Part shown: positions 342 to 23,900 of the stretch, in pieces
Layout of the letters: each line of letters begins with the position of its first letter
Position numbering within the stretch: position 1 is the stretch's first letter
Assembly: GCA_038049695.1 (NCBI GenBank)
Contig: CP142456.1
Location: 75,353,422 to 75,417,421, forward strand
DNA from: Cinnamomum chago
Taxonomy: Eukaryota > Streptophyta > Magnoliopsida > Laurales > Lauraceae
Length of the DNA stretch: 64,000 nucleotides
Direction of reading: 5' to 3'
Notes under the pieces: model-generated
Told to the model about the DNA's origin: nothing
Seen by the model: the letters and a program-made list of their open reading frames with translations, nothing else
Databases searched by the model: none
Position numbers and translations under genes: made by a program

Positions 342-3300
342 AGATGACAAGCTCCATGTCACATGGTGAAAAAGAGATTAAAAAATCTGTACTATATGAT
401 CATCGTCCTATTCAATTAAATGAGGATGATTATTGCCGGGCTTGTGAAGTCCCACGAAGAAAGGTTGGTTAGATAAGATGCCTTTTGCGTATATATTAGT
501 AGATTTTTGAGACCTGTATGTGATTTCTGAATCCCCTTCTTGATCATTAGGGAGCAAGTTTTAGGGATTTTCCTGGTGTTGTTATTGGAGCGGACAATAA
601 GGTCATGTTGGACCCAACAGCAGAAAGGGTGTTATTACCTTCTGGAAAGCCATTGGTGAGCACTGGTTTATTCAAATTCATGCACAGTATTTTTTTTCTT
701 TTTCTTTTTGGAGGGTAACTTTCTCCAATGTTTACTGTTGATCTTCATTTTTATTTGGCTTATGAGTCCCGGTATGCATTGTCTATTTCATTAGCTTATT
801 TCCTCCATTGTATTCTTCTCCTCTTCTCTTATTATCTTCATTATCCGACCTCCTTTGAGCACGACACTAAATGGATTTAGGGATCATTCCTCAAAACAAT
901 ATATTTTAGTATAGAGTTTTGGTCTACTAAGGGAGTCCGGCATGGCAGTTGTTTTTGATTTTCAGTACCCACCTTTAAATCAAGGGGGTTCTGACATTTA
1001 GAGGGACATGAAATACAAAACATAAAAGAGAGAAAGAGATGGTGAACGTCGTGTCCCTTAAGGGTTGACTAGGTATCATTATATAGGGGCTGATTAAGGC
1101 AATACAATCTTAGATCCAAAATCCTAGCTAACAAATAAGGTATGTACACATGTGCTTTGACTAATGGCAAAATACATTGGTTGGGCCTAAATGGGCCTGT
1201 GAGAGGATTGGACCTTGATTGACCACGCCCCCCCTTCAAATTGATGCTGGGGAGTCATAAAGCAACACTTTGGAGACAAAAAATTGATGTCGAGGCGCTG
1301 AAGAAATCCCTTAGTGAAGATATCTGCTAACTGAAACTCAGTAGGGACATGAGGTAGACTAATGACATCATGCTTATATTCGTCTCGAATAAAGTGGCAG
1401 GCAACTTCGATATGTTTGGTACATTCACAAAGAACATGATTTTCAGTGATTCTGATTGCCCCACTATTATGTGTATTCAACAGTCAATTTCGATATGTTT
1501 GGTGCCTTCACGAAGAATCTGATTTTTAGTGATTCTGATTGCTCCACTATTATATGTATTCAAAGAAGTGGGAGAGGTTTGTGCAAATCCGAGTTCTGAA
1601 AGAAGTCCCCTAAGTCATAAGATTTAAGAACATGCAGAGGACATGGCCCGATATTCAACCTCTGTGGATGATTTGGAAACCCGTTCTTGTTTCTTGCATT
1701 TCCAAGAAACGAGAGAATTGTCGGGGTACATGCACCAACCAGTAGCGGACCGTCATGTATCCGGACAACCTGCCCAGCCAGCATTTGCATAAGCTGTCAG
1801 ATGTAGACGATTATCCTTGGGATAATATAAACCACGAGTGACAGTGCCCAACAAATACCAGATAATGCACTTCACAACCATCAGATGAAGGTGTTGAGGC
1901 GATGTCATGAATTGGCTGACAAGATTGACAGCATAAGATATGTCCGGTCTAGTGATGGTGAGGTAGACAAGACTGCCCACGAGCTGTCGGTATGTATGTG
2001 GATCAGGAAGAAAATCACTATCATCTTTGCTCAACTTAAGATTGACCTCTAGTGGCGTATCAACGGGCGAAGAGTCATTGAGACTAGCAAGCTCGATAAG
2101 ATATATTGCGTATTTATGTTGATTTATAAATAGGCCTTTGGGAGATTGATGCACCTCTAAGCCCAAAAAATAATGCAAGGGACCCAAATCCTTCATATGG
2201 AAGGAATCTTGGAGAGTGGCTTGGAGAGATTTTATCATTCCATCATCAATGTCGGTGATAATAATATCGTCAACATACATGAGGAGAACAGTAACACCAG
2301 TAGATGTGTGGCTCACGAAAAGAGATGGATCGTAAGGACTTTGAGTAAAGCCAATCGTACCTAAGTGACCTTTGAATGTTTGAACCACGCCCGAGGAGCC
2401 TACTTGAGACCGTAAAGAGATCTTCGTAAGTGACATATAGACTTCTTAGATGGAGAGGTGACGCCTTGTGGTATCTGCATATATACCTCTTTCAAATCGT
2501 TCGGGAGAAATGCGTTCTTGACATCCATTTGGTATAACGACCAAGAGTGAGAAGCAACAACAACAAGAAGTAACCGAATATTGGTCATTTTTGCAACTGG
2601 TGCAAACGTCTCCTCATAGTCAATGCCATATTCTTGTCCGTTGCCGAGTGCCACAAGTCTAGCTTTGTGTCTATCCAAGGAGCCATCAGATTTAAGTTTG
2701 ATCGAGTAGATCCACCTACAACCGATGGGTTTAACTGAGGAAGGACATTCCACAATATCCTAGGTGTGATTTTGAGTCAACGCATCCAATTCCTCCTTCA
2801 TGGCCTGGTTTCAACAATCATGTTGCACAACCAATAAATAAGAACTTGGGATAGAAACAGAAGATAGAGTTGTCATCAAGGAAGCGTGGGTAAACCCATA
2901 ATGCTCAGGAGGTTGAGAAATTCTGGAGGAGCGACGCAAGGTACTAGTAGAAGTGGAACCATTCGCCGGTGGAGGATCAAGAGGGTGGTCATTTGCAGTG
3001 GTAGTTTTTTCCCGTCGATGATACACAAAATTAGGATTAAACCTAGTAACTATTGTTTCATTTGAAAAACCAGGCAAGAGAGTTGAGGAGGATGGAGGAG
3101 GACAATCCAAGTGCATTTGGAAAAAAATATTGATTTTAAAAGAAAATAACATTATGACAGATCCTGATGTAACATGCATTGGGTTCATAACAAACAAAAT
3201 CCTTTTGATTAGTGGCATATCCTAAAAAAGCATACTTGGCAGATTGGGCTGTTAATTTTGTGCGCTCTGTGGGAGGACGATGAACGAAGCAAACACACCC

Positions 3301-6300
3301 GAAGGCATGTAGATGATCACAAGAAGGATGGTGACTAAACAGTTTAAAATGCGGTGTTAATTGAGCAATGATAGGTGATGGAGGACGATTTATGAGATGC
3401 ATTGTAGTGGTGAGAGCTTCAATCCAAAAACGAGGAGGAACGGATGATTCAATGAGAAGTGTTCTAGTGACATCAAGGAGGTGCCTGTTTTTCCGTTCCG
3501 CGAATCCATTTTGTTGTGGAGTATACGGACAAGTGCGTTGAGATATAATTCTAGCCTTTAGGAAAGATTGAAAATCAGTGGAGACATACTTTGTCACGAC
3601 CCAAATTCCGGGGCCTTGTCGGATATCCAGATCGTGATAACTTGGCAATGTTTACCATTCATTTATCAAATAATTCACATAAGAGATTTGACATTTAAAT
3701 CAAACTATAATTCCAATTAATTTATAAAAGTCAAACAATATCAATAATCTCTGAATGATCCAAATTCCTATATTCTAATTCAAATCAATAATGTACTAAA
3801 ACATTGGGTAAATTACTAAGCAAAAGCTAATCCTTCTAAATTATTTAAATATTTCTTGTTCTCTCCTTTCAGCCACGCATGTCAAAATCTACGTGCTGTA
3901 CGCCGTCCTGATCTGTCCCACCCGCAGTAAGATTACCTGAAGGGGGCAACACAACATCAGTATTACTGGTGAATGAATTTTCCTAATTACACAAGCAACA
4001 TAAAACATAATATCACATGATCAACATATTTGAATCAATATATTAAATGCCAAAAAAATACATCCATATATATATATATATATCCATGCCCTTGCACATT
4101 ACCACGCCTCAAAGGCCTATCGTATACATGTATACCGGTCACCATGACCCTGTCTCATCGGACACGTCCACTAAAGACCAGCCGCTATAATGGCCCGGAC
4201 ACTAAGTCCAACATCCCACGTATGGGACCTCACCATAACATAAATACCACAACTCAATATTATTAACAATTTACATCATTTACATAATTAACAGTGTGGA
4301 TCCAACCCTTACTAAATTCACTGGTTATTGCCCCACTCCAATTCATAATTGGTATTGATTGGTGTATGGTTGGCCCACATTTTTTTTAAGACATAACATT
4401 AATCATCGTGCATAGAATTAATCACAATTAATTGATCACAATCACTTAATCACGATCCATATAATTAATCATGGCCTAATTAATCCATATAATTACTCAT
4501 AATACACATTCTAGGTTCTGTGAAGTCTTATGGTCATTTTGTAATTTCTCATAAAGTCCAGGTCTTATTCAAGTCTCAGACTCTTCCCAGACTCAGCCCA
4601 AAATGGATTATAGGCCTGTGCAATGTGCATATATGGAACAGTGGGCCCCACTTTAATGATACATGATCAAACTTGATTTATATGATCGCCCAGTGCCCTA
4701 CATTAAGTCCTATGGTTCTGATTAATCATCAAGTATCCTTACTGGGCCCCGCAGTCTCAAATAAATTGATGAATAAGCCTTATGGTTAACAAAATTGAAG
4801 TTCCTGGATAACTGGTTAGATAGACACCAGGCCACATGGGACCACCACATTGGGATTGTCCTTGAGCCTACTTCAAGACGTGGGGTCCTAATCTATGATT
4901 GACTTAGTTAGTGGGACCCAGTAGGCCTTGTTGACATACTGTTCAGTTTTAGTCAGTTTCACGCCTGGGGATTTGATGGCTTATTAAATATACAATAGAT
5001 GGGGCCCACTTCCAAGGAGTCCACCATCACTAGGGTCGACTATGGACCCTCTGTAGGATGAGAGGTCTTGATCTCTGATCAAGTCTACTGGTGGGTCCTC
5101 CAGTTGATGTCGACCTTCAGTTCTGTTTTCAACAAATTAACGCTTGTAACATTAAAATCAAGAGGATGGTGGCCCAAACGGGGCCCACCTCACATGGGTC
5201 CAAGTCCATCTTGGTCGACCATGGGTCCTCCTTAGGATCTATGGTCCTGATCATCCATATAGTGGGCCATATGGTCTCACAACCTTCTCATGTCAATTCT
5301 AGCCATTAACGCCAACCTCTATTTCATGTAATTTCTATACATGCACAATAGATTCTCATGATTCTACATCCTTATCAATTTGTATCATCCACACAGACTC
5401 CCATATATAATTCCTTGACCGAAAACAAGATTCTACTCTAGAATTCAAGAGGATCACTGCATGCTTATCAACACAGAGTAATTGAATCATTCTTCATTAA
5501 AAATCATTTGATTAAAACCATCTAGATAATTGGGAAGATCCACTCACCTTTGATAAACTATCGCCGCCTTCGCAATATGTGGACGTGAATATGACATCAA
5601 TCTTCCTCTCCTTCTCCTAGATTGTAGCCCACAGTCTTTCTCAGAATTTTTCCAAATTAAAACACCATAATGGGGTCATTGGTTTGCTTATGTATATATA
5701 TAAGGATGTGTTGTAATAACTTCCTAATTCTAATCTTTCTCTTATTTCCTCTATAAGAGTTGTTATACAACTCCAGTCCAAAAAACGTGAGACACTTTCC
5801 AATTCCATAATAAGTACTACTTCTAATTCCATAATAAGGAAACAACTAAGGTACTACCTGGGCCAGACTAATCCTTAGGCTAGTATATACCCAGGATATT
5901 ACATACTCCCCCGAATCTGATCGCAAAGTTTTAATGCATTTGGAAAATTGGCTTTCAACATAGGTAACAAAAAATTTAAATGCATTAAGAACATCAGATT
6001 TCAAACGCAACAAATAAACCCAAGTAAACCTGCAATTGTCGTCAATAAACGTAACAAAGTATTTGAAATGACCATGAGAAATGTTAGGATTAATGCCCCA
6101 AACATCACTGTGGACGGAACATTCATTACTCCGTGTTGTAGAGTGAGGAAAATGTAAACTTTTACTTTTTCCTAATTTACAAGCATCACACTCAAATGAA
6201 ACAGAATCAATAGGTTTATTTAATAATCCAATTTGAAACAAAGTAGACAACATAGCAGCATTCGGATGGCCAAGTTTATTATGCCACAATCGAGAATTAT

Positions 6301-9300
6301 TCTAAAGTAAAAAAAAAAAAAAAAACCTGATGCAAAAGTTTATTCTAAATAAATGTAGACACTAGTTGGGAAAAAGTATGCCACGTTTAGGCCCCCTTAC
6401 TATCACTTCCCCCGACTCTTGGTCCTGCACAACACAACCAGAAGAAGAAAATGAGATATTGTAATTATTCTCAACTAATTGACCCAAAGAAACTAAATTG
6501 ATAGCAAGATGAGGGACACAAAAACATTGGTTAATGGTAAAAGGGCGAGGGGCATCACCAACGGAGATTATGGGAAGGTGATCCCCATTGGCAGCTTGAA
6601 CAGTAAAATTGCCAGTGTAAGGAACAACATTATGTAATTTTGTGGGTGAAGAGGTCATATGATTACTAGCATCTGAATCTAAATATTATGTATTATAAAG
6701 AGATGACCCAGTAATTGAAATGTTCATAGATGACAAGGCATTGATAATCATTTGATTTACTATATCCTGAGTGAGAGGAGCTGATGACATTGATTGTGAT
6801 GAGGAACCAAGCTATGATGAAGAATCAAACGGCAGAGAACCACTGAAGTTAGAAGCTGCATATTGTGGAGTGGCAACTGTGTAAGCACTAGGAGCTGACT
6901 CCACAGAGGTGCTAGAAGCAGAATTGCGAGCCTTCTTTGACACTCTTCAAGAATGTGACCAATGGCCAGATAACATTTACCGACTTTTAGCATGCATTGA
7001 TTTGCATAATGACCATATATTTGACAGTTATAGCACTGCATTTTACTGATGTCCTGAGGAGGTGGTCTAGTTTTAGCAACATAGGGAAGCAGAGCCTCAG
7101 TGGAGTCATGTTATTCAAGAGTAGTTTTGGTAACTAGGCGTTGTTCTTCCCGTAAAAGTTCCTGAAGATAGTCATCTAAGCTGGGAAGAGAAGCTCAACT
7201 CATCAAGTTTGATTTAACTGTCTCAAATTCAGGACGGAGTTTCATGAGTAATGGGTCCCGATGGTTGTTTTGTTGTAAGATAAGTAATTCGGGTAGCAGT
7301 ACTTCAGAAATAGACACAGTGGTAAACTTGATTTCATCATATTCAGACCACAGTCTTTGAAAACCATTGTAATAATCTTGAATAGATAGGGTGCCTTGTG
7401 TGAATTGAGAAATTTCAAGCTCCAATTGGAATTTGCGGGCATCATTGCCTTCTTGATAAATCTTGTTTAGATATTCCCACATTTCACGAGCAGTTTTACA
7501 CGGCTTCAGATTGAGGATGAAACGTGGTTCAACAGAGCTCAGTAACCATGTTTTGATTTTAGCATCCTTACTCTTCCAAGCTAAAATCTTCTTTTCATCT
7601 TCGCCAGGTTTAATCTCATATCCATAAATGTATCCCTAGAGTTCTTTGCCTTCAAAGTAAACTTGAAATTGGAAGTCCCAAGAGCTATAATTTTGCCATC
7701 AAAACGAACCAGGATAATTTCGGATTTTTCCATTACTAACAGATTAGTAAGAATGGCAGAAAATAAAATTTTGATGATGCTGCCAAATGAAACAGGGCTG
7801 GGCGACCCACTATTTTCGTGTTGGCTGAGTCGCTGTGCTCAACTGAGGATGCGAATTCGAAAACCAAACCAAGAAGTATTGATCCTATGTAAATCAACAC
7901 TCAACAGCCAATTCTCGTCTAGATCTAATGGTCCACCGCAATATAATTCAACTTGGAAGAAATCAGTTTGAAAAAACTGTTGAACAGGAAGAATGGGCAA
8001 ATACTAACCTTAAGGAGCTCCAAAAAATATAACAAAATAGTCAATAATGTAGAAGATAACTCATGAAATAAATAGGCCCATGTACTCTAATCTTGGCCCA
8101 TCTAGGCCCATGTAGAATATCCCACGTGTGGGACTGGTTAAGCCTTATACAGCCAGTATTATGGATATACTTCTATGTATAGAGATTAGGATTCTTTTAT
8201 TCTTTAATTTCTGATTGTAATTAGATTGTAATTGTTGTTGATTAATAGCATGTGATTAGGGTAAATACGATTATAAAATGGTTGGTCGATCCTCTATTGA
8301 GGAATCAACTTTTCCTCCAAACTCTTCTCTCACTGCATGATCATTAGATCCTAACTTGGTATCAGAGCCTATACTGATCGTGGGAAATTATTGAAGACTA
8401 GCTCTTCTGAGAGAACTCTTGGGAAAAGCTAACAGATCAATCTTGCAATCAACCAGATCAGGGATCTTCATTTCTTTCAGTAACCAGACGAAGGAAACAG
8501 ACGTTTGTGACGATATGATCACCAGTGGCCCACCTGCGATCATCATGGCATGTCACAAATTCCCCACAGTAGTGGTCGACTCTCTCTCCTGGTAATTTTG
8601 AAGATTTTTTCAACATTTTTCCAAGATCAGAGGTAGGTCATTTGCCCCGATTTGTGATTTTCCAGTTTTTTAAGATAGTTTTGAACATAGCCGTACAAAA
8701 TCTTGGATTGTGGATGGATCTTGATGAATCTTGTCTTGCTGGAAAGATATTTTGAGTCTCCTTGAACCTTGTTGATCTGATTCTCAATCAGATCCAGCTG
8801 TGGGCCACACGCAGGGATTTAGAGGTCCAAATCCAGGTCGCCTGGACCTATATTTTTTTTGTGAAACTATTTACAGACAGTTTCTACACTGTCTGGAGTT
8901 TTGGACATTACTGCTGTACTGTTGGGTTGTTACTACAGCACTGTTAGAAGTTTGTGTTGGATATTACTGTTGAAATTTCTGCTTGTGTCTCTGCTGCACC
9001 GTTGATACTGCTAAATAGTACCTGACGTGCCTCTGATCAATTGTGGCCCACCTCTGATCAACTTTGAATCACCAAGCAGCCTCCACAGTTGGGATCGCCA
9101 GTCCTTAAGGAGTATTCTAAGGATTTTATGGATTTTTTCTCACCATTTGAGGTAGGTTTCATCCCATTCTTCCTCTGTCGATTTTGATATTTCTGTATCA
9201 AATAGATTTCATCACAGTCGTCCAGATTTGTGGATCTGTATCCAATCCTCATCACCCTTGGACTAGAGGAAGTACTTTTGGACTCCTTCCAGAGATTCTA

Positions 9301-12300
9301 ACATGATCTGTGATTAGATCATTTTGTGGGGCCCACGCACATCTCCTGCCTCCAAAATCACGGTCGCCTGGGTGCTTTCTTGGCTCTGTTTGTGCTGTCT
9401 GTTGCTGGATTGCTCATCAGACACCTCCTCTCCTGTTTTAGCAGACTTCTAGCAAGGGTCTAGCCGATTCAATCAAATTAACACAGATTACAGCAGATTC
9501 CCTTGCTGTTTTTAGCAGACTTCATCTTGTCTGCTGCCTTCTGCTTCACTGTTTATTATATTTCTTGGTACTACTTGCTGCTGGGTTTACTGCGCCATCA
9601 CTGATGTGTGCATATTTGCTGTTGCTGCTCTTAGTCCTTGGTTGCTCCATGACTCTAGCCCAAATTCAAGAACCAATTCAGAACACGGTGACATCAGCTT
9701 ACGCATCTATGGGCTTTCATGGTGGTCGGTATCATACTCATTCTCCTCTAGCATTCCCTGCTTTTCATTCTTCAGTCTCTCTGTCCTCATTCATCACCCC
9801 ATCCACATGTTTTCTAGATTCAGGAGCATCGAACCACATAACTTCTATAGAAAGTAGCTTTACAGCCTCTCACCCTTACCTTGGCAAAGACAAAATCACC
9901 ACTGCTAATGGAGACCAATTAATCATCTCTGGAATTGGTACCATTTCTTTATCTGGTGTCTCTGGCCAGTCTCTTCACCTTCCCAATGTCTACTTTGTTC
10001 CCAAATTATCAGTCAATTTACTTTTTGTCGGACAACTTATTGATGATGGGTACCATATTAACTTTTCTTCCACTGGTTGTGTCATACAGGGGCAGCAAAC
10101 TGGGAAGGTGATCGCGACGGAGAGTAAACATGGTCGACTGTTTTTGCTGGACATTGGACATCACTCGCTCTTTTCTTCTTCTTCTCCTAAGTTAGATAAA
10201 TTGTGGACAGTGTGGCATAGTCGTCTTGGTCATGTGAACAATGCTTCTTTACTTTCCCTATTTAAAATTGGTTGTTTACAACCCACTTTTGATAATAAAA
10301 TGATGTCCTCTTTACTTCAATTTAAGTGTGAAACGTGTTGTTTGAGTAAGAGTCATATCTTGCCTTTTCCTATTCATAGTTCTCGTGCTTTATCATCTTT
10401 TGATATTATTCACACTGATGTTTGGGGAATTGCACCCACCTTGAGTAGGACAGGCTTTAAGTATTATGTGACCTTCATTGATGATCATTCCTGTTTCACT
10501 TGGATTTATTTCATGCGCTTCAAATCTGAAGTACTTTCTCTTTTTCAAAAGTTTTACAAAATGGTTCAAACACAATTTCAAAAAGAAATAAAAATTCTTA
10601 GGTCTGACTCCGGTGGAGAATACATGTCCCATGATTTTTCTGCATTCCTTTCTGATAAAGGAATTCTTCACCAAAAATCCTGCGCGCATACTCCATAGCA
10701 AAATGGTGTTGCGGAGAGGAAGAACTGACATATTCTTGAAACTGTTCGTTCTCTCCTCCTTGCATCCTTAGTTCCTCCCACCTTTTGGTATGATGCTGCA
10801 CAGACTGCTGTTTATCTCCTCAATCGTCATCCTAGCTCTGTTTTAGGAAAGACTACTCCTTATGAAACTCTCTTTGGTCATGCCCCTTCATATTCTCACG
10901 AGTTTTTGACTGCCTGTGCTTTGTTCATCTTCCACCTACAGAGCGCACTAAGTTGTCTCCTCAGGCTGCCAAATGTATCTTTCTAGGTTACAGTATTGAA
11001 CACAAGGGATTTCTGTGTTATGATCAATCCGAAAAACGCATGCGAATATCTCATAATGTGATCTTCTTGGAAAACATTCCTTTCTTTTCTTTGCATTTGG
11101 ATAATCACCCTGTTGCTGTGTCTTATATGCCGCACTTCCCTGCGATTTCTCCACCTCCTATTACCAATGTCTATGTTCGGCGTAACACGAATCCTCCTGT
11201 GGGGACTCCCTCTCCTGTTCTCTTCCAGTGCCACCTACTGCACCCTCAAGTATTAATGCTTCTTCTGATAATATCATACCCTTGCGACGCTCTAGTCGTC
11301 CTTCAGTTACCCCTGACCGTTATGGCTTTCTTGCTTTTTTCACTTCTTTGGATAGTGCTCCTATACCCACCTCATATTCATAGGCCTCAAAGATTGCTTT
11401 CTGGCAGGATGCTATGACTGAGGAGTTGCTTGCTCTTGAAGCAAACAAAACATGGGAATTGGTACAGGCCCCTGACGGCGCATCTATAATCGGCAGTAAA
11501 TGGATCTATTCCAGCAAAGTTCACTCTGATGGGAGTCTTGATCGCTACAAAGCCAGATTAGTTGCACAGGGTTATAAGCAGGAATATAGGATTGACTATG
11601 AGGAGACCTTTGCACCAGTGGCTAAAATGACAACTGTTCGCACCCTTCTTTGTGTAGCTGCCGCCCGCAATTGGCCCTTATGGCAAATGGATGTCAAAAA
11701 TGCCTTTCTTCATGACGACTTGCGTGAGACTGTGTATTTAAAACCACCTCCAGGATATGCATGTCCTCCGCAGCATGTTTGTAAATTGAAGAAAGCTCTT
11801 TATGGACTTAAGCAGGCTCCCAGGGCTTGGTTTGATAAATTTCGGACAGCAATCCTTCAAGCTGGATTTCGCCAGAGTCACTCTGATAGTTCCCTCTTCC
11901 TCAGATGGACACCGAAAGGCTACACATTTCTCTTAGTCTATGTTGATGATATGATTATTAGTGGCAATGATGTTGCTGGCATTAAGGATCTCAAATTTCA
12001 TCTTACTCGCCACTTCAGAATGAAGGATCTTGGTCCTCTCACCTACTTTCTGGGGCTTGAGTTTGTGCGTAACAAATTTGGCATTCGGGTCCATCAGCGC
12101 AAATATGCTACAGATTTGATTACCTTGGCAAGGGTTGCTGATGCTCACACTGTTGATACGCCTATGGAATTGAACAACAAACTCAGTTCGGATGATGGCC
12201 CTCCCCTGGATGATCCCTCTATTTTTCGGCGGATAGTTGGTAGTTTGCTCTACTTAACTATGACTCAGCCGGATATTTCTCATGTCGTTCATACAGTTAG

Positions 12301-15300
12301 TCAGTTTGTTAGCAATCCCCACAAATCTCACCTTGCTACTGCTTTACGCATACTCCGCTATGTTAAAGGCACTCTTCACCATGGTCTCTTCTACCCTTCT
12401 GGTACTTCTTTGTGCTTATCTGCTTATGCTGATGCCAACTGGGTTGGTTGTCCAGATTCTCAGCGCTCTACTACTGGTTGGTGTATGTTTCTTGGGGATT
12501 CTCTAATTTCATGAAAGTGCAAGAAGCAAACCACCGTTTCGAAGTCTTCTGCTGAGGCAGAATATCGGGCAATGTCATCCGCTAGTGCCGAAATCATCTG
12601 GCTACGCCGTCTTCTGTGTGAATTGGGTGTTCTTCTTGGTCGTTCTACCCCTCTTCATGGTGACAACACCAGTGCTACCAGAATTGCTAACAATCTGGTC
12701 TTTCATGAAAGGACGAAGCACATTGAGATTGATTGTCACTTCATCTGTCAGCATGTCGTTACTGAGAGGTTATCTCTTTCTCATGTCTCTACTCTTAACC
12801 AGTTGGCGGATATATTCACCAAGGCTCTTCCCAAAACGCATCATCATGATCTTACTTGCAAATTGATGTTTTCTGCCTTACCACATCAATTTGAGGGGGA
12901 GTGTAAAAGATAACTCATGAAATAAATAGGCCCATGTACTCTAATCTTGGCCCATCTAGGCCTATGTAGAATATCCCACGTGTGGGACTGGTTAAGCCTT
13001 ATACAGCCAATATTATGGATATACTTCTATAGATAGAGATTAGGATTCTTTTATTCTTTAATTTCTAATTGTAATTAGATTGTAATTGCTGCTGATTAAT
13101 AGCATGTGATTAGGGTAAATACGATTATAAAATGGTTGGTCGATCCTCTATTGAGGAATCAACTTTTCCTCCAAACTCTTCTCTCACTGCATGATCATCA
13201 GATCCTAATAAATAATACCAGAATAAAGGGATGACCGCGGCTGGCTGAGATCGCATATGACAGATCTCTGATCTGTGGGACCCACCGTGATATATCCCTG
13301 CTGGATAATCTCGTCAGGGCCGGAAATCTCTGATCGTGATATTTCTCTGATGCTTCACTTGCTGGACGAGTAAATCTCGTCGAAAGAGAAAACTTTGTCA
13401 AACAGAGAAGAGGAAGAAAACTCTGGCTCTTACAATGCAAGAGATGAAACAATAAAAAACTTTCTTTATCTCTGATGCCATGACATTTAGAGGGACATGA
13501 AATACAAAACATAAATGAGAGAGAGAGATGGTGAATGTCGTGTCCCTTTAAGGTCGACTGGGTGTCATTTTATAGGGGCCGATTGCCCTAATTACTATAT
13601 CTAATCATGCCTCAATTAAGGCAATACAATCTCAGATCCAAAAAGGGATTTTTTCTGTATGGTAACCCAAAGTCATCGATTCCTCTCCCTTGTCACCAAA
13701 GTTTGCTATTTAATCCAAACGTTCTCCGTACCGTTTGTACTTTGTGCTGGCCAAAAGGCATTTTTTTAAATTTGCGATATCTCAACAAATGTTGCGATAT
13801 CACAATTTATGTTGCGATACAGCAAGCTATTAAGTTGCGATACCGCAATTTATGTTGTGATATCGCAAAAAGCATTACGTTAAAAGTCAACGAATGCATT
13901 TCTATTTATAATTTCTTTCCGTTCTGTTGCTTTCGTATCTGGATTGGGTTCTCTGCTTCCATTCTCTGTAAGTTAGGGTGGGATGCACTGGCATATATAG
14001 TAAGTGATCTCCTGCCACATTCTCTGCGAGTTAGCCTCAGGCCATTGTCATATATAGCAAGTGAATCCCTGCCACATCTTTGTCTATGGTATTCATTTCA
14101 TGTTTCCCACCTTGTATGTATCTCTCTCTTAGTTATTGTATTATTTTTTTCTTCTTTTGTGTCTTTTGAAAGTTGTTAGGATACAAGGAATTCCACTTGT
14201 AGAAACATTTGAAACATTTTGTATAAATATTAACAGCGATGAACATGTTAATATATGCACTGGCATATATTAACAATGATGAACATGTATAAATATTAAC
14301 GGTGATGAACATGTTGTATAAACTTTTTTCTTCTTTTGAGACTTTTTGATGAACATCCGGTAATTGATATATTAAAAAAAGATAATAAATTCATGCCAAG
14401 AGGCGAAAGAATATCATAAATTCATAAATCAATCCTCTCTGCAATTTGCAACTTGCAACTTGTAATAAACTCAGAAAAGAGAAACCCAAAAAAATTTAAT
14501 CAAGAAAAAAACTAAATAAATATAATGTAAAAACGAATAGATCATAAAAAAATAATTTCGACTTACAAATTAAAGTTGAAGTTGGAGTTGAGAGATCATT
14601 AATGGGGCCACATCATTATGGCAATACAAAAGATGTCATTATATATAATTCATAAGGAAATGGAATTGGCATGGGTGAAATCCTATATCGTACTATAAAT
14701 CCTGTTATCAATCGTGGTTCTGATGGTGAAAACCTAGCATTTTGATTCTTTTCCTTGATGTGATGATGGGTAAGTCTCCTCTGGGTATTAAAAGAGGGGC
14801 GTTCCTTGAGAAAGGGAGGAAGATGAAGAGAAGGGGCGTACTGTGAGGGGGTGTTTGCTTTAGATAGAATTTTGAATCGATGAGATAATGTAGAAAATAT
14901 TAACGTCGATCCAATTGTTGACGTGGCTTCCCGAGGATTGAGAATGAGGTCTTTTTCTTGCAGCTGTTATTCCGCTTTAAAGAAGAATAATGAGTAGGGG
15001 ATTAAGTGCAGGAAGGTTACCATGGCAAAGGAGATGCTTTCTGAAGATGGTTCACACCAAACTCCAACAGTAGATTCTCTATCAAAACAAAGGAAAGAGA
15101 AGACCAGAACTCGCTAAAAGAGAGAGGGAAGAAGGATTACCACGTTCAAAAGGGGCGACTGCAATAACACCAAGCTCGGGAATGCCCAGATTGCGAAACA
15201 ATGGTGGCCAAAATCCCTAGCCAATGGAGACGATGATGCTTCTTCAACGTCGAACGGACATTGGGTGCCTTGCATATTTGCAAATAGGTTGGTGAGGGAA

Positions 15301-18300
15301 GAGGATGGTGAAAACGGCTGGGGGAGAGTGTTATCGCAAGTGAAAATGATGAATAGTTGAAACAGGGAGGAATAAAGGATGAAAAAGGTTGTTTTGAGTT
15401 GCGATATTACAACATAAATTGTGGTATTGCAACTTAATAACTTGCGGTATCGCAACATAAATTGTGATATCACAACATTTGTTGTCATATTGCAAATAAA
15501 AAAACGCCTTTTGGCCAGTGCAAGGTACGGACTGTACGGAGAAGTCTGGGTAAAATAGCCAACTTTGATGACAAGGGGGAGGAATCAATGACTTTGGATT
15601 ACCTTACAGAAAAAATCCCATCCAAAAATCCTAGCTAACAAATAAGGTATGTACACATGTGCTTTGACTAATGGCAAAATACATTAATTGGGCCCAAATG
15701 GGCCTGCGAGATTGGGCCTTGATTGACAGGTTCCACTTTGTGGAAACTGAGGGTTCAAGGGGGTTCCACTTTGTGTGCGTGTGTGTCACTTCCGTTTTTC
15801 TGAAAAAAAGGGCTAAAAGTTAAGAATTCAATGAGGACAGATTTCAGGACCGAGTTTGATTGATGATATCTGAACAGCTGAAATCTTGCAACATGTGTAG
15901 AAAATATCCATTGTGAATATCAGAAGAACTCTTACCCATTTGGGAGCCTATACTGTGACTTTCTTTCCATTGTCCATGTACTTAGATGTCTTTTTTGTTT
16001 CTTCGTTCTGCATTTCCCTTCAAATTTTCCTCATTAATTCTACTAGAGTAGGTGAAATTTGACTCCATCTAATAACTCCTGTTGAATTGTCTTTGGGTTC
16101 AATAAATGTTTCACTGAACCCCCTTCTGTTGAGTTTGGCGCTTTCAAGTAGACTTGTTTATATATTATACTTGGGTAAATATGTATTTGTGTGGTCCATA
16201 CTAGGCCTGGACTTGGTTCATATTGTAAATCGGGACCATAGATCTTGGATTTTCCCAGCAGTGTTTGTCTGGTAACTGGGTAATCTGAGCCCCAGTTGGG
16301 ATGGGGGGATGATAAATTGTATATATTCCAAGGAAAGATACAGACAGCAGAGAATGAAATGGAAGGCTACCCCGGGTTGCAAAACAGGAGCAACTAGGAG
16401 AGAGCCCACCAACAAAAAATGCCAATGCCAAGAAAGACCCACAAGCCGGACCAACTAAAAAACGAACCCCACAGGCCAGAACAGCCAACAACCAACGAAG
16501 TGGGCAACAAAACATAAGAGAACACAAAACATACATGATTAGATTTGGTCCTCTAAATTTGACAAATTTCGTAGATGATCCCATTTTTTTTTTTACTTAT
16601 CTCATATGTTGATCAATCAAATTATTGGATCAGCCCTTTCCTCCATTCAAAATCCCCAAAATTTCTTCCATTCTATAAATCTTCAAAATATTCATTACTT
16701 GGTCAAAGAAGCAACTAGAGTCCGAGACTAGAGAGGAAAATGCTTCTGAAAGGCGTAACGGTGGCTCTTCATCTATTCTACTCTACAAATTTTACAAGGA
16801 CTTAAGCTGTAGAGAACACTCTGCGGAAATACATAGGAATGACGAATATTTGTAAACTTTGATCAGGAATTCTGCTGTACATGTCCTCTCTCCTTTTGCC
16901 TCCTTTTTTTGGCTAGGCCTTTATGTAGATAGATCCCCAAGACCTCTCTCCTTCTACTAATTGAAATTTCCCTTTTAATTGAGACTGTATTACTGGGCTG
17001 AACTTCAACTTAGGTTCTTAATTTTGATCTTTGAGCTTAAGAAGCTTCGAATTGAATAATTTTTGTATTGAACATTTGGATCTCATGTTTTTTAATGTCT
17101 CTCTGCACTCAGTCTGCAGCCTTTATGGCTGCGATAAATCCAAAGGATCCCTTTCAATTTTTCCAACTTCTTTTGGCCAAAAAAAAAAAAAGGAAGAAGA
17201 GCAAAGATTTTAACACAATCTGAGTGTGTATTTGTTCTGTATAGTGTATTGTTTTTTTTGTTTTCTATTTTTGGCAGAGAAAAGTGTCTTCATTGTAATA
17301 GTCTTTTATTGATAAACATGATTAAAATTCAGGGCTCAATGTGTGTATCATTATCCAAGATAAATGTTGACTTAAGCTTTCCCACATTCTGTTGCTTTAT
17401 ATCTAGGTACCGGACTATGCAATGACATTTGAAGAGGGAAAGTCTAGAAAGTACGTTTGCCTTCTAGCCTTCCAGACCATTTTGTGTCCATCATATTTTT
17501 GTGAATATTTTATCCAATACTTGTTAAAATTCATGTAGACCTTTTGGACGATTATGGTGGGATGAAACTGTGGCGACTGTCTTCACTAGAGTGGACTCTC
17601 ACAACCAGGTATCTCATCTCTAGATTTGATTAGTCCTGAATCAATACTTTACCTATTCATTAATTATGGAAATTTCTTCAAGACTGTTTTACATCCAGTT
17701 CAAGATAGGGTCCTCACCGTGCGTGAGTGCGCAAGACTGCAAGGCTTTCATGATTATTATAAGCTCTGTGGGACAGTTAAAGAAAGGTACCTTATGCATG
17801 TTTGTATTTTGATTTCATAAACTTTCTTCCCTCATTTGTTTCTGAAGGATGGTTTCCTCTAATCCGCCCAACATCTTTGAGCAACTGATGTTTACTCCCT
17901 GATTCCTTGGAAGTGTGTTGTCCATTCTCCATTTTCTCAGACATTGGTGTGTTTTGAACCATATATGTACGACTCTCATCTTCATGTCGAGCATCATGTT
18001 ACATCCCCTATGCGTTTAGTATATACAACTTAGAGAACGCCCATGCATCCATGCCATTGTCTTGTGTTACACTTGTATTTGATTTTAAGTAGTTTATTTT
18101 CTGGCCTTCTTTTTCCGATTGTCTAAATATTTCTTTGCGATCCATTTGTCATGTACTAATTTTCACCTTCTGTCCTTCCAGATACCGTCAAATTGGCAAT
18201 GCCGTGGCACTTCCGGTCGCACGGGCTTTAGGATATGCATTGGGGATGGCATGGTTGAATCTTGCGGGGGACGATCCTTTACTGATTCTGCCACCCAAGT

Positions 18301-18359
18301 TTTCCTTTTCTACCATTGTCCAACTTCCTCCATCTTCATCTTCTGAAGTTGACAGCTAA
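342..18359 (+). CDS. CMT3: Chromomethylase (DNA cytosine-5-methyltransferase), CMT3-like, C-terminal half, six exons
   Basis: Plant-specific nuclear methyltransferase that maintains CHG methylation on H3K9me2 chromatin, mostly over transposons. Exons: 342-463, 551-655, 17407-17450, 17539-17608, 17683-17786 and 18182-18359 (stop TAA). All join in one frame at GT-AG sites and give about 207 C-terminal residues. Visible blocks are [15 protein letters not shown], the [10 protein letters not shown] segment, [11 protein letters not shown] in the target-recognition region, C5-methyltransferase motif IX ([14 protein letters not shown]) and motif X ([19 protein letters not shown]). The tail [13 protein letters not shown] resembles CMT3 more than CMT2, from memory of the Arabidopsis proteins. 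The BAH and chromo domains and the catalytic PCQ motif must lie upstream of the window. The intron 656-17406 is 16.75 kb and holds nested transposons, but the exons on both sides look intact. Family is certain; the CMT3 subtype is likely. Confidence 0.9.
656..991 (+). other. Left part of the giant chromomethylase intron
   Basis: Host intron sequence between the donor at 656 and the left end of the Copia insertion. It is T-rich, without coding signal, and ends in the 5-bp target duplication GGTTC (987-991). Confidence 0.7.
992..1225 (-). repeat. 3' LTR of Copia A
   Basis: About 234 bp, starting TGACATTTAG and ending GATTGACCA next to the polypurine tract. It matches the interrupted right-hand copy at 13481-15728, which contains about 36 bp more. 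Confidence 0.88.
1226..7735 (-). pseudogene. Fossil gag-pol region of Copia A
   Basis: Degenerate coding sequence of the Copia order gag, protease, integrase, reverse transcriptase, RNase H, read on the minus strand and interrupted by the solo LTR at 3592-5903. The gag start MEKSEI is near 7735. Closest relatives within the window are elements B and D. Broken, with many breaks, and not expected to make protein. Confidence 0.85.
3592..5903 (-). repeat. Solo LTR, 2.3 kb, probably Ty3/gypsy
   Basis: A 2312-bp block inside the integrase region of Copia A. It begins TGTCACGACCC and ends GGATATTACA, so both strands have TG...CA ends. The flanks are TACTT and TACTC, an almost perfect 5-bp target duplication. 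It has no primer site, polypurine tract or coding domain, and no repeated ends, so it is read as a solo LTR left by LTR-LTR recombination. The terminus GGGTCGTGACA on the minus strand is familiar from plant gypsy LTRs (from memory), which suggests minus orientation and that family. A short (TA)n run lies near 4066-4083. A non-autonomous element without internal genes is the alternative. Confidence 0.75.
8048..8352 (+). repeat. 5' LTR of Copia B
   Basis: 305 bp, TGTAGAAGATAAC to AGATCCT, followed within about 5 bases by the primer-binding site. Matches 12902-13206 at about 97.4%. Confidence 0.92.
8353..9700 (+). other. Untranslated leader of Copia B
   Basis: Starts with the primer-binding site. 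It is rich in GATC, GTGGGCCCAC-like and CTGCTG words and resembles the leaders of A (13212-13470) and D (43690-44215). No coding domain was recognised. Confidence 0.6.
9700..12900 (+). pseudogene. Fossil pol region of Copia B
   Basis: Protease, integrase, reverse transcriptase and RNase H signatures occur in Copia order on the plus strand. Broken, with several breaks. Domain positions are given in the element entry. Confidence 0.85.
12902..13206 (+). repeat. 3' LTR of Copia B
   Basis: 305 bp, the partner of 8048-8352, preceded by the polypurine tract and followed by the AATAA target duplication. Confidence 0.92.
13645..13868 (+). repeat. Left terminal inverted repeat of the MULE
   Basis: About 224 bp, the inverse of 15399-15619. 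The inner 100 bp hold the TTGCGATATCGCAA-like units. Confidence 0.85.
15399..15619 (-). repeat. Right terminal inverted repeat of the MULE
   Basis: About 221 bp, the inverse of 13645-13868, ending CAGAAAAAATCCC before the 9-bp target duplication. Confidence 0.85.
15734..17406 (+). other. Right part of the giant chromomethylase intron
   Basis: Host intron sequence from the Copia A target duplication to the acceptor at 17405-17406. It has a short GT-rich run near 15772-15790 and poly-T tracts. Short open frames lack codon bias or known domains. The GC-richer patch at about 16290-16520 could be an old repeat but could not be assigned. Confidence 0.6.
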
Positions 18360-20978
18360 TTGTCACCATCCCTTAGTCTTATGCTAAAGCGGCAATGGTT
18401 TCCTTTTCTCTACCTTTGCTGTTCTTATAGGCCTCAGAAGTGTTGGGTTTCAGTAACTGGGTTGGGTGAGTCAACTGGAATCAACAAGGGAAGTGTTGTT
18501 TGTTCTTGGGAACTATGGTGTCTTTTCATGGACCTCTGAAAACTTTATTTTTTTATGACTTCAGCTTCTTTTCTTTGGTTCAGAGAAACGATCCTTGCAG
18601 TGAAATGTATTTATACCTCATCTCAGGCTGCAGAATATGGTCATCCACCTTTGGGCATGTATCTGCTTTTCACAATAAATGCAGAAAATGCCTCCCAACT
18701 CTCAAAATGAAATCTCGTGTCAAAACCATCACTCAACTTGGTAGCTGAAGGCCTTTGTTGCCTGGACTATGGACCATTAAGTGCCAATGTGGATGGACCA
18801 TGCACATAGAATTTCAGCAACAAGGTGCTTGTGAGGATGTTGTCAATAACTGTCATGATCCAATTGATGTGGATCTATTGGTTAGCCCAGGATCCTGTTG
18901 ATCATTATATATAATTAGAGGCCCATACATTATGGAATGGACTAATTGAGAACGGGAACAAGTGATCCAAATGATCCGGTGATACAATCACACTATGCAC
19001 AGATTGCACGAGATCAGGCCCCACAATTTTAACAACTTGGATTAATCGATCAATGATCTCTTGTATATATATTCAATTTTCCCTACCGTCTCCTGTTCAT
19101 AACAAAGAGGAGAAAACATGCAAAGAGAAGCATTCATGGCCAGGTAGGAAACACTCATCTTAGATTTGAGATGAAAAAATCATGCATCATACAGGTTGCA
19201 CATGTGTCCAATTTTCAATGCCAAGGAAGATTTCCTTCAGCAATGGGTTGGACCAGATGGGCCTTGCCCAAGTACAGCCCTCACCTTCAGAACTTGGATC
19301 TTACAAAAAGAACACTACCGCCCTTTTTGGATGGCCAGTGGGGATTAAGCAGACTAGCCAATTGCAATGTTATAATTGAAAATTGGGATTTTTTTTAAAC
19401 AAAATCTTAAAACCTGAAAGTACATTTTAGTGAATAAAAACACAAAAATGACAGAATTAGTATGTCGTACTTTTTTTTGGGACAAAATTACCTACCGGTT
19501 GTCGACATTGTTGCCCAATTTATATTTTCTGAAAGCCAAATTTTCTTCCTAATTGGAAAACAACTATTGAGTGAGTCCTAAATAGGTACACATTCATCAC
19601 AATGACTGAATTTGAATCTAACAAAGCACCTAATCTTCCACATATCCATATTTTTACTGATATGGGTGTTGATATTGTCACCCACTTTTTAGTTTTTTTT
19701 TTATGTCAAGTTTATACATGATTTGGGGTAAACTTGTAGAATCAGTCCTAGATAGCTACATATATAAAATATATCAATTTGATATAAAAAAAAACTGTAA
19801 AAAAAAACAAAAACTGGGTAATGATTTCGCTAGGTGGGCAGCTTTGTTAAAAAAAAGAAAAAAGAGTACGACGCCCTAATTCATCATTTTTGTGGTTTTT
19901 TTTACTAAACCATATAATCAGGGCTTAAGAATAATTTTTTCATAAAACACCCCTTGAAAATTAGTTCACTAATTTTCTATTTTGGGGGCTATTTCAATAT
20001 CTCGAAATAGATGTTTAATGGTAATTGAGTGAGTCATATGTTTTATAAATGTCTAAACTAAAACCTTTTATTGGACAAATTTCCCATTCTCTCAAAGGAG
20101 TCATACTAGCAACTGTTGAAGCCATGGGAGCACTTTTTCTCTCCCGATTTATATGTTGTGTTTTTAATTATTTTGATAGTTGATTGGAAAATGCAAACTT
20201 TTGTTTAGGGAAAAATCTCAAAATCACCCCCAAGTTTTGATCTAATATCAAGAAGGGTTAAAAAAAATCTATTATACTAAAAAAGGTATTTTGTTTCACA
20301 TAAGTCTTTTGAAACAACAATTGGCATAAGTCTATCTTTTGAGCCCCATTATCCTTAGGAAAAATTAAAGAAGATACAAATTGGATATGTGTTAGAATAT
20401 TAGATCAAAATAGTGGAGATGTTTAGGTTGATGAAAGCCCGCACACACTAGAGGGTTTGGGCTGATGATCCTAATCTGATTAGTAATTGAGATCTTTTAC
20501 GGTTGTAATTCATATTTAGATTAGGAGTTTATTTTAGCAAATTTGCTTTGGTTTTTATATGAATAAATTTTGTGTAAGTCAGTTTATTAGAATGCAAAAG
20601 TATAAAAAGACTAAGTTAGAAAAGAAGAATACCATTGAAGAAGATGGTTAGGCTATGTTTACTTATTCTATGATGTTGTTTCAACAAGTTAATGACAATG
20701 ACCTATTTGAAAGCTGCTTGATAAACTTGGGAACCTTTGTCCTATAAAATATGTACTGAACCCTTTTTTTGATATTAGGTCGAAAATTTAGATACTGTTT
20801 TGAAAACTTTTTCATTGTTTTGTCAGCCTCTTTATGCTTTGGATTCTCTGGAAGGATCTTTCAGACTCGGAGTAGAACCAAATCCAAGTTGGATTTCAAT
20901 CCCAACTCAGAATAAGTGAAGGAGAAAGAAGCAAGAGATTGGAGAGACGATTGCTACTTTCATCTTGAAGATTGAAGG
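18360..20978. other. Chromomethylase 3' UTR and intergenic region upstream of RAR1
   Basis: The first few hundred bases after the stop at 18359 should be 3' UTR. Beyond about 18800 the sequence is AT-rich with many poly-A and poly-T runs and no supported gene. The last 100-200 bases before 20979 should hold the RAR1 core promoter and 5' UTR, but no clear TATA box stood out. Confidence 0.6.
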
Positions 20979-23900
20979 ATGGAAAAGGTTCGATGCCAGC
21001 GGATTGGATGCGACGCCATGTTCTCCGAAGACGACGATCCCGAAGGCTCCTGCACGTACCACGCTTCTGTAACATTCATACATCTTCTTCTTCTTCTTCT
21101 TCTTTCTCCTTTTTTCAAGCTTCTTCTTGTTCTTTCTGCGTGTTGGGGTTTTTCCTTGTTTGGTTTTAGATGAATTCTATTGAGATTATGGAGCTTTTTA
21201 GGATGCACCACTTCTGGAAACACCCTTCACGGATCCAAAGATTTGATTTTTATCCTGAAAGAAGCAGTTAAAACCGCATCTCGATTATCAAAAGACCCCA
21301 AAAACGTGTCTTTGGAGAAAATCGCAATGAACCCAAATTTATTAATCAGCAGTCCTGCACATAGGGCACGGGAGAGAGGTGTATGGTACAGTACTACTGG
21401 GAAAGTAATAATCTTTACTGCAAACATTGGGCATTGGAAGTGCAATTCCCAATGAGAACAGATGAATTCCTTTTTTTTGCCTTTTTTTCTGTTTCAGTCA
21501 TGTGGGATCCTTACAAGATCGCAGCATAGATCTTTGGATAAAGATTCAGAAAAGAAGAAGGAGGAGGAGGAGGAGGAGGAGGAGGAGGAGAATTCTATGG
21601 TTGAATCCCCTTGTGTGTATTGCCCCTGCAAATGAGGATATTATTAATTAACTCAACAAATTCACGTACTCGACTGACTCAGCATCGAACAATATGATTT
21701 AGAAAATGTCATCATCATCAAATTAACCCATCAGTATGGGATTGACGATCTCCATTAATTAAATGATGATATAATGATTATTCATTCTTTCATATGTTGC
21801 AATCCCATTCTCTTTAGTTCTGTAAGTGATGAGTTGGGGGGGTTTTTCATATCAAATTATGGTAATTTCTGATTGGTTGATTGTTGTCATCTTAAATTTG
21901 AAGTATGCGTTTTGTATAATCTATGTAAATATGAGAAAGAATGTCAACATTGTTGCAAGAAAGATGAACTCCTTGAAAGTAAATGAAGGTCGGTGATTGA
22001 GATAGGGCAAATAATTTAAGCATATGAACATTTATGAACACTGAAATTGGTTGGTCCTTATTTCAGCATTGTTGCACATGATGACTTATTCTTGTATCAG
22101 AAAGTAGACACTTATTTGTATTATGAACTTCAACTATATGTTTATATGGTCATATATGCTAATGGTGGAACTTTTTTTTATCCATGTATCGGCTTGGATC
22201 CATGGTTTTGCTGCCTTCCTTATAGGGTGTAAGTCCAAAATTAAATCCCATTTGTTTTTACTTTTAGAATCACTCTCCAATTTCTTTTGGCAGTAGACAA
22301 TACACCTTAATAATAATGTGGTTCTCATTTTCTGCAGCCTATGTTTCATGATGGTATGAAAGAATGGAGTTGTTGCAAGCAAAGAAGTCATGACTTCAAC
22401 TTGTTTTTAGGGATTCCTGGGTACGCTCTCACTTTTTTGTTGTGTTAATGATCATTATGCTTTAAAAATTGAAGCGAAGCTCTTTGAGGCTGAACAAGAT
22501 GCATGTTTAAAACATTTTCTATGGGAGCTTTTAGAACCTTTTCTTTTATTGCCTACGTTGGATGTGGAATAGTGAGGGTGGAGATTGGACAAGCATTTTC
22601 TTGGCTTAGACAATCCTCTTTACCCCTGTTTGGTTCCATTTTTGGTGCATAAAAGTGGGGATGATTTGGAGTTTTCTTTGAATGTTCTACTTAAATCATT
22701 GTCTCCATTTCTGAATGCTTAAGAGTGTATGAGGCTTATCCTTGTATTCTTGCTTGTTTGAAATATTTTTCTCTTACACGATCAATTTTATTTTATTCTT
22801 ATATATCTTTTTGGGCATGTTTGGTAAACGGTGAAGAATCCTATATTTAGAGGATTCTCTCCATCTCCAAAGAAAGCCACAATCCTCAAGTAGAATTCCC
22901 AATGAAAGTTCCATGTTTGGATGGAGGGAGGATTCTTATAAGTTGTAGAATGTATGATCCAATTGATGTTTATACAAATATCTCAAGATAAAGTAAGGAT
23001 CAACGGTTGTAATTTGGTCACCTTACCGTGTTTGACCGTCCAGAACTAATGACCGGTTTTGATCTTAATCGTGGACCCCACATAAACCCAAAAATGAGAA
23101 AAAACGGACTGTTTTCAATAATAGTTTGCACAGTAAGACATTTTGGCACATATCTAGAGATTTAAGATGAATTAACGGCTGATATTTGGTGAAGTGACCG
23201 TTTTGGAGTTTTTAAAGATGACTAACGGTTTGGATCTTGATTAGGGAATCTAAAAGGTACATTTCCAAAGCAAAAACTTATTAGGGCCACATTACTACTT
23301 ACCTTCACTGTCACTTATCGTCACTGTCCCTCACGGTTTTGCAAATATCTCAAGATCTAAGATGAATCAACGGCTGAAATTTTGGGACATAGCCGTTATG
23401 GACCTTATTAACACAATTAACGGTTCAGATCTTGATCTTGGGGCCCACAGGAACCAGAAAATCGAAAAAAACGGACTGGATTTAATCCCGTTTTTTGGCC
23501 CACAGCATATCAGAAATTGTCATCTAACGGTTTGGACGATTTTGCAAATATCTCAAGATCTAAGATGAATCAACGGCTGAAATTTTGGGAGATGGCCGTT
23601 TTGGACCTTCTTAACAATATTATTGGTTCAGATCTTGATTATGGGGCCCATAAAAACCAAAAAAACGCAAAAACCGGTCTGCCCTCTATTAACGCCCAAA
23701 AGCACTGTAGCTCCGCAAATCCCCTCTTGCGCGGAATCCATGAATCCGATGGGGGGGCGTCTGACTCTACAAATATTCAAAAGGGTGGATTTCTGCAATC
23801 CATCCTCTTCAAATCCATGCCATTCCAAACAAGGAAATCCGCGCGATTGTGGATTTTGGACGAGGAATCCGTGGCGAAGACCGTTGCCAAACATGCCCTT

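Follow-up and report, generated by a model that had tools for sequence, protein, structure and literature searches.

We analyzed a 64,000-nucleotide stretch of the Cinnamomum chago genome (C6:75353422-75417421, hereafter the window), which carries the 3' part of a chromomethylase (CMT) gene whose 16,751-bp intron is occupied by a nest of four transposable elements. Taken together, the evidence makes it likely that this is an ordinary heterochromatic intron, built up by repeated transposon insertion, within a CMT2-like gene that would still be working. Two of the nested elements carry CG and CHG deamination scars like those of related copies elsewhere in the genome. The assembly comprises 1.061 Gb in 14 contigs, with no N inside the window; positions given without a contig name are those of the window.

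Four nested transposable elements in one intron

The intron (656-17406, forward strand) has GT-AG ends, and about 2.0 kb of it remains when the nest is subtracted. Self-alignment delimited an outer Copia element at 992-15728 on the reverse strand, with long terminal repeats (LTRs) of ~234 bp, broken coding frames, the Pfam domains RVT_2, SH3_retrovirus, gag_pre-integrs and Retrotran_gag_2, and a perfect target-site duplication (TSD), GGTTC, at 987-991 and 15729-15733. Inside it lies a 2,312-bp solo LTR (3592-5903, reverse strand) whose TSD, TACTT/TACTC, matches at four of five positions, or reads ATACT/ATACT if the ends are moved one base outward. The family of this LTR gave 107 matches from 40 scored of 1592 candidates, and we assigned it to Ty3/Gypsy because a pair of related partial copies on contig C7 encloses a gag-like frame, recognized by eye, and a frame with Pfam RVT_1. 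A second, inner Copia at 8048-13206 (forward strand) has paired LTRs, Copia-type domains and a perfect TSD, AATAA, at 8043-8047 and 13207-13211; its right end was placed from the TSD and does not show the usual CA. The fourth member is a Mutator-like element (MULE) at 13645-15619, which splits the right LTR of the outer Copia and has terminal inverted repeats 87.5% alike over 224 bp and a perfect 9-bp TSD (ATCCAAAAA/ATCCAAAAA). No Pfam match, and thus no transposase domain, was found in the two overlapping MULE frames tested, so the element is probably non-autonomous.

Paired LTRs, 5-bp TSDs and Copia-type domains are therefore present in both Copias, and long terminal inverted repeats with a 9-bp TSD in the MULE; three of the four TSDs are perfect, the solo LTR being the exception. 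A Copia hosting a solo LTR, a second Copia and a MULE in one 16.75-kb intron is what the original prediction, made from the sequence, had described, and the ends and TSDs bear it out. The nesting shows that the outer Copia predates the other three elements. We use this order only, since ages derived from LTR divergence hang on assumed rates: 9 differences at 304 aligned sites would date the inner Copia to 1.2-10.1 million years, and 15 at 198 sites, in the compared parts only, the outer Copia to 3.1-26.6 million years. The outer Copia also contains an 83-bp tandem duplication (1398-1563), its copies 88% alike.

Assignment of the host gene to the CMT2-like chromomethylases

The gene product matches the Pfam profiles BAH (2.1e-13), Chromo (1.4e-10) and DNA_methylase (2.7e-39). 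Chromo falls at residues 253-306, between the motifs LDLYSGCG and GGPPCQG, so that the chromodomain sits inside the C5 methyltransferase domain, as in chromomethylases. We found two paralogues, at C6:82.58 Mb and C2:2.57 Mb, in a search that scored 62 of 92 candidates and could have missed further CMT genes. Exon 1 of the window gene encodes 273 aa with four RRSPR motifs, and the exon-1 open frames of both paralogues contain none; RRSxR motifs in a long amino terminus are given as a hallmark of CMT2 (PMC11540031). Over 678 shared columns the paralogues are 85.4% identical to each other and each is 63.7% identical to maize ZMET2, compared with 58.1% for the window gene, which is 64.5% and 63.4% identical to the paralogues. 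CMT2 is described as sister to the CMT1/CMT3/ZMET clade (PMC5410703). Because of the four RRSPR motifs and the lower ZMET2 identity, we classify the window gene from its sequence as CMT2-like and both paralogues as CMT3/ZMET-like. The gene had earlier been labeled CMT3-type, which these two observations overturn. Membership of the CMT3/ZMET subfamily goes with a short amino terminus and the closest kinship to ZMET2, and the gene shows neither.

Six of the seven ZMET2 residues named as contacting DNA and H3 in PMC11540031 are kept (W224, Y302, Y526, Y776, R804 and H808), with I at M641; the numbering offset was set here, and ZMET2 shows the named letter at 7/7 positions. The kept residues include both that read the CHG guanine (equivalents of Y526 and R804). 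In most flowering plants CMT2 is reported to have typically lost the R804 equivalent, a loss not seen in the window gene. Amborella CMT2 keeps the arginine (PMC11540031), so its loss is not a defining CMT2 feature and its presence does not exclude CMT2. Amborella CMT2 thus shares with the window gene an RRSPR-bearing amino terminus and the CHG-reading arginine; it has eight tandem repeats compared with four motifs here, and the genome studied here has in addition two CMT3-like paralogues that share 85% identity. The presence of both CHG-reading residues in a CMT2-type gene is relevant to the timing of the loss of CHG activity by CMT2.

Fragments resembling CMT catalytic exons cluster at C5:68425674-68454200; most contain stop codons, and they are 48-68% identical to the window gene. 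Dispersed matches to exons near the BAH domain and chromodomain (43-67% identity) occur at C3:96686824, C2:35639874, C5:60452876, C11:3367437, C10:49595645, C1:37042065 and other sites; transposons may have carried them there, or they may be remnants of duplication. One CMT3-like paralogue has exons 1 and 2 twice, ~6.9 kb apart, at ~11323-11804 and 18225-18713 on the reverse complement of C6:82550001-82620000.

The coding sequence is open on both sides of the nest

The part of the gene that begins with the BAH exon and ends with the stop codon comprises 18 exons encoding 717 aa, with no internal stops and GT-AG at 17/17 introns. The exon translation scored 850 bits against ZMET2 over 690 chain residues. 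Directly 5' of the nest is the exon at 551-655 (GASFRD...GKPL, donor GTGAGC), and directly 3' the exon at 17407-17450, which shares its last codon and carries the Y776 equivalent; they join in frame, GKPL followed by VPDYAM, a run that is contiguous in ZMET2 with no residue missing. Upstream, the 13th exon counted from the BAH exon (342-463) is in frame, aligns with ZMET2 and has an AG acceptor and a GT donor. Downstream lie the exons at 17539-17608, with the R804 and H808 equivalents, at 17683-17786 and at 18182-18359, the last including the stop codon; all are on the forward strand. Exons flanking the nest had been predicted to be intact, and they are.

The gene as a whole spans ~C6:75324385 to 75371780 (47.4 kb) and starts ~29 kb upstream of the window. 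Exon 1, encoding the CMT2-type amino terminus, maps to 20963-21781 in a joined coordinate, A2 (C6 = A2 + 75303422), that is, to C6:75324385-75325203, and exon 2, likewise upstream of the window, to A2 29217-29319. Introns of 3,983 and 9,110 bp accompany the 16,751-bp intron within the 18-exon part, and two 5' introns measure ~7.4 and ~4.5 kb. While the two flanking exons of the earlier gene description are thus real, the gene begins outside the window and other introns also reach several kilobases.

Since the coding sequence stayed open, splicing through the nest is suggested. Divergence from the paralogues is also alike on both sides of the intron: in the A-B comparison the nonsynonymous difference (pN) is 0.233 upstream and 0.245 downstream, with the split placed two codons inside the downstream exon. 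Synonymous divergence (Ks) between the window gene and the paralogues was discarded as a measure, being saturated (pS 0.75-0.76), and for this reason no dN/dS is given for recent time.

Deamination scars concentrate at CHG and CG sites

Methylated C tends to mutate to T, and we therefore counted C/T differences per CG, CHG and CHH site in the intronic elements. Between the LTRs of the inner Copia, whose differences post-date insertion barring gene conversion, C/T differences affect 5 of 13 CHG sites, 0 of 6 CG sites and 3 of 88 CHH sites (CHG vs CHH p=7e-4). For the solo LTR and the inner Copia, changes were polarized by the two best-matching other copies of each. The solo LTR has scars at 7/74 CG, 10/122 CHG and 14/640 CHH sites, and 3 kb of the inner Copia, a stretch taking in part of its 5' LTR, at 3/80 CG (p=0.10), 10/192 CHG (p=0.0017) and 10/807 CHH sites. 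Pooled, the two give 20/314 at CHG vs 24/1447 at CHH (p=1.7e-5), with 10/154 at CG. The outer LTR pair differs at 3 of 6 CG sites, and its CG and CHG sites jointly exceed CHH (p=0.018). Because the scars are concentrated at CHG and CG relative to CHH, the intron was probably CG- and CHG-methylated in the past, in the germ line.

Similar scars were also observed in the comparison copies, which were taken irrespective of their position in or outside genes. The four pooled have scars at 37/618 CHG and 45/2929 CHH sites; the excess at CHG is strong in the two Copia copies and not significant in the two solo-LTR copies alone (1/100 and 4/103 CHG sites). Observed/expected dinucleotide ratios were rejected as a sign of methylation, as they do not discriminate: for CpG they are 0.44 in the solo LTR, 0.44 in the inner Copia, 0.58 in the outer Copia and 0.73 in the MULE, compared with 0.32 in the element-free intron, 0.56 in the exons and 0.43 in the window from 20 to 64 kb.

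Long introns in the paralogues and in other genes

The corresponding intron measures 159 and 183 bp in the two CMT3-like paralogues; the family as a whole therefore does not share the expansion. Paralogue exons were placed by homology using the exon phases of the window gene, so equal phases are built in. Elsewhere, one paralogue has introns of 3,266, 5,983, 2,510 and 1,543 bp and the other of 9,247, 5,606, 2,365, 1,394 and 1,127 bp, and at least one long intron in each contains Copia-like sequence, judged by similarity to the Copias of the window. The next gene in the window encodes a CHORD protein, which we take to be RAR1-like, and has a 22.6-kb intron (~22419-44984) with three stretches of Copia-type frames. 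Gaps of 13.3 kb (C1) and 10.3 kb (C10) separate neighboring profile positions at RNA-polymerase-subunit loci, one of the two matches at the C10 locus containing a stop, and a DNA polymerase locus has an 8.0-kb gap with up to 26 profile positions unplaced. Given the long introns in the next gene, the paralogues and these polymerase loci, long element-filled introns are not unusual in this genome. With transposon-filled introns also in its neighbor and sister genes, the window gene is an attractive test case rather than a strange one.

A probable ordinary heterochromatic intron and its alternatives

The sequence shows that an intron which would measure ~2 kb without the nest took up a Copia. Three insertions into that Copia followed: a MULE, a second Copia and a Gypsy element of which a solo LTR is left. 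The elements would be silenced through CG/CHG methylation and H3K9me2, while RNA polymerase II would read through the nest and the intron would be spliced out. The machinery acting on intronic heterochromatin includes EDM2 and further partners. Such general machinery, with IBM2 as in PMC7145194, would help in this removal and probably block early polyadenylation here. Methylation of the intron by chromomethylases would be a by-product, at most tuning the output of the gene weakly; a special regulatory role is possible and not favored.

Several observations weigh against this account. Neither the outer LTR pair (CHG 1/3, CHH 7/71, p=0.29) nor the ends of the MULE (CHG 2/11, CHH 9/58, p=1.0; CG 7/20) show a CHG excess, the scar counts are small, and all but those of the LTR pairs include history from before insertion. 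The polymerase gaps are examples rather than a census and are known by length only. The 5' part of the gene is partly modeled: exons 1 and 2 are out of phase with each other in all three CMT gene models, and the donor after exon 2 is GC (AAG/GCAAGT, C6:75332742, A2 29320), where both paralogues have GT. As the misfit recurs in both paralogues, its probable cause is a small exon that the model lacks, and not a defect of the window gene. Finally, the four exons distal to the nest (396 nt) would be expected to gather only ~1.5 disabling changes at the older divergence, with a probability of ~0.2 of gathering none, so the open distal frame alone is weak evidence for read-through.

The nest might instead act as a heterochromatin sensor, in which a chromomethylase keeps the intron CHG-methylated and thereby permits full-length CMT2 mRNA, so that loss of methylation lowers CMT2. 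This could work through IBM2-type factors, or through silencing of cryptic LTR promoters and poly(A) sites, and has precedents in IBM1 and CMT1/Evelknievel. The CHG scars of the intronic elements and the CHG-reading residues that are kept fit such a role, and a transcript ending early within the nest would lack the exons carrying the Y776, R804 and H808 equivalents as well as the last motif. However, the intron is unexpanded in both paralogues, unrelated genes have long introns too, and the CHG scars do not exceed those of copies elsewhere (20/314 vs 37/618, p=0.89). Self-dependence is also not needed, as the two CMT3-like paralogues could supply the methylation. We therefore regard a sensor as unlikely. 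The original prediction had suggested a feedback of this kind; the pooled CG/CHG scars indirectly support a methylated intron and the open frame splicing through the nest, whereas the CMT3-type label did not hold up, the paralogues lack the expansion and the next gene has a still longer transposon-filled intron. Still more doubtful is the specific version in which the only CMT2-type gene found still reads CHG and, with its paralogues, methylates its own nest as a requirement for full-length mRNA, so that the gene would be a self-sensing gauge of heterochromatin, gained through chance transposon insertion in recent evolution.

Alternatively, the gene may be turning into a pseudogene; in that case the nest would already prevent most full-length mRNA, and too little time would have passed since then for the frame to be disrupted. 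The several long introns, the GC donor in the 5' intron, the possible youth of the inner Copia (K=0.030) and the small power of the four distal exons would all agree with decay. If the 2,151-nt coding part evolved neutrally, one would expect 1.1 stops and 2.1 frameshifts at the per-lineage divergence of the inner LTRs, and 2.9 stops and 5.5 frameshifts at that of the outer LTRs; the probability of no disabling change is 0.038 and 2.3e-4, respectively, figures that use assumed indel rates and transition weights and LTR divergences inflated by methylation. The 717 open codons with canonical splice sites thus argue against decay, as does the fact that this is the sole one of the three CMT genes found with a CMT2-type amino terminus. 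We consider decay improbable, marginally more so than a sensor, and prefer an ordinary heterochromatic intron in a working gene. A misjoin that placed the nest in the intron is very improbable: the elements are repetitive and the genome is represented by 14 large contigs, but the window has no N and a perfect TSD spans both outer junctions.

Comparison with known systems

The closest published case is Arabidopsis CMT1/Evelknievel (PMC6238269), where a Copia retroelement also lies inside a chromomethylase gene. Full-length CMT1 mRNA running through the exonic element is reported to be very low in wild type, with none recovered from cmt3; silencing of the element by CMT3/KYP is reported as required, and a feed-forward model was proposed. 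That account is already a published instance of a chromomethylase gene in which read-through of a retroelement depends on methylation. Evelknievel is a single-copy element in exon 13 of some accessions, where 25% of splicing events restore the frame, whereas the present case has four nested elements in a true intron of a CMT2-like gene with intact exons.

IBM1, which counteracts KYP-CMT3 in genes, has methylated introns in many angiosperms, and in Arabidopsis these govern isoform choice (PMC11265718). The window gene belongs to the same pathway and resembles IBM1 in its long intron, which is probably CHG-methylated; in contrast, this intron is short in both paralogues, and the gene has no known isoform. 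In rice, heterochromatic introns are reported in ~11% of gene models, with premature polyadenylation there in osibm2 (PMC7145194). These OsIBM2-dependent introns are likewise transposon-bearing introns within genes, their transcription and methylation having been seen in rice, and they average 447 bp, far shorter than the intron described here. Among the titles and abstract openings listed, none described a nest of transposons within an intron of CMT2 or CMT3; most subscription papers fall outside the literature searched. The novelty is one of combination: the host gene is CMT2-like, its true intron harbors a fourfold nest, and a scar test stood in for bisulfite sequencing.

If methylation of the intron did control the gene's own mRNA, the nest would be a homeostat born of chance, coupling the capacity for silencing to the load of transposons, and would join IBM1 and CMT1/Evelknievel as another such case. 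Even if ordinary, it offers a clean example of a methyltransferase gene that would have to be read through the sort of elements silenced by its product family.

Other features of the window

The 22.6-kb intron of the CHORD gene contains an inverted repeat, with 98-99.5% identity between its arms in the three longest blocks. A Copia-bearing stretch in the same intron (39094-44512) lies between two identical 287-bp direct repeats that resemble LTRs, and because these repeats are identical the stretch is probably very young. Further downstream, an open frame at 61939-62811 encodes a WD40 protein of the CDC20/Fizzy type.

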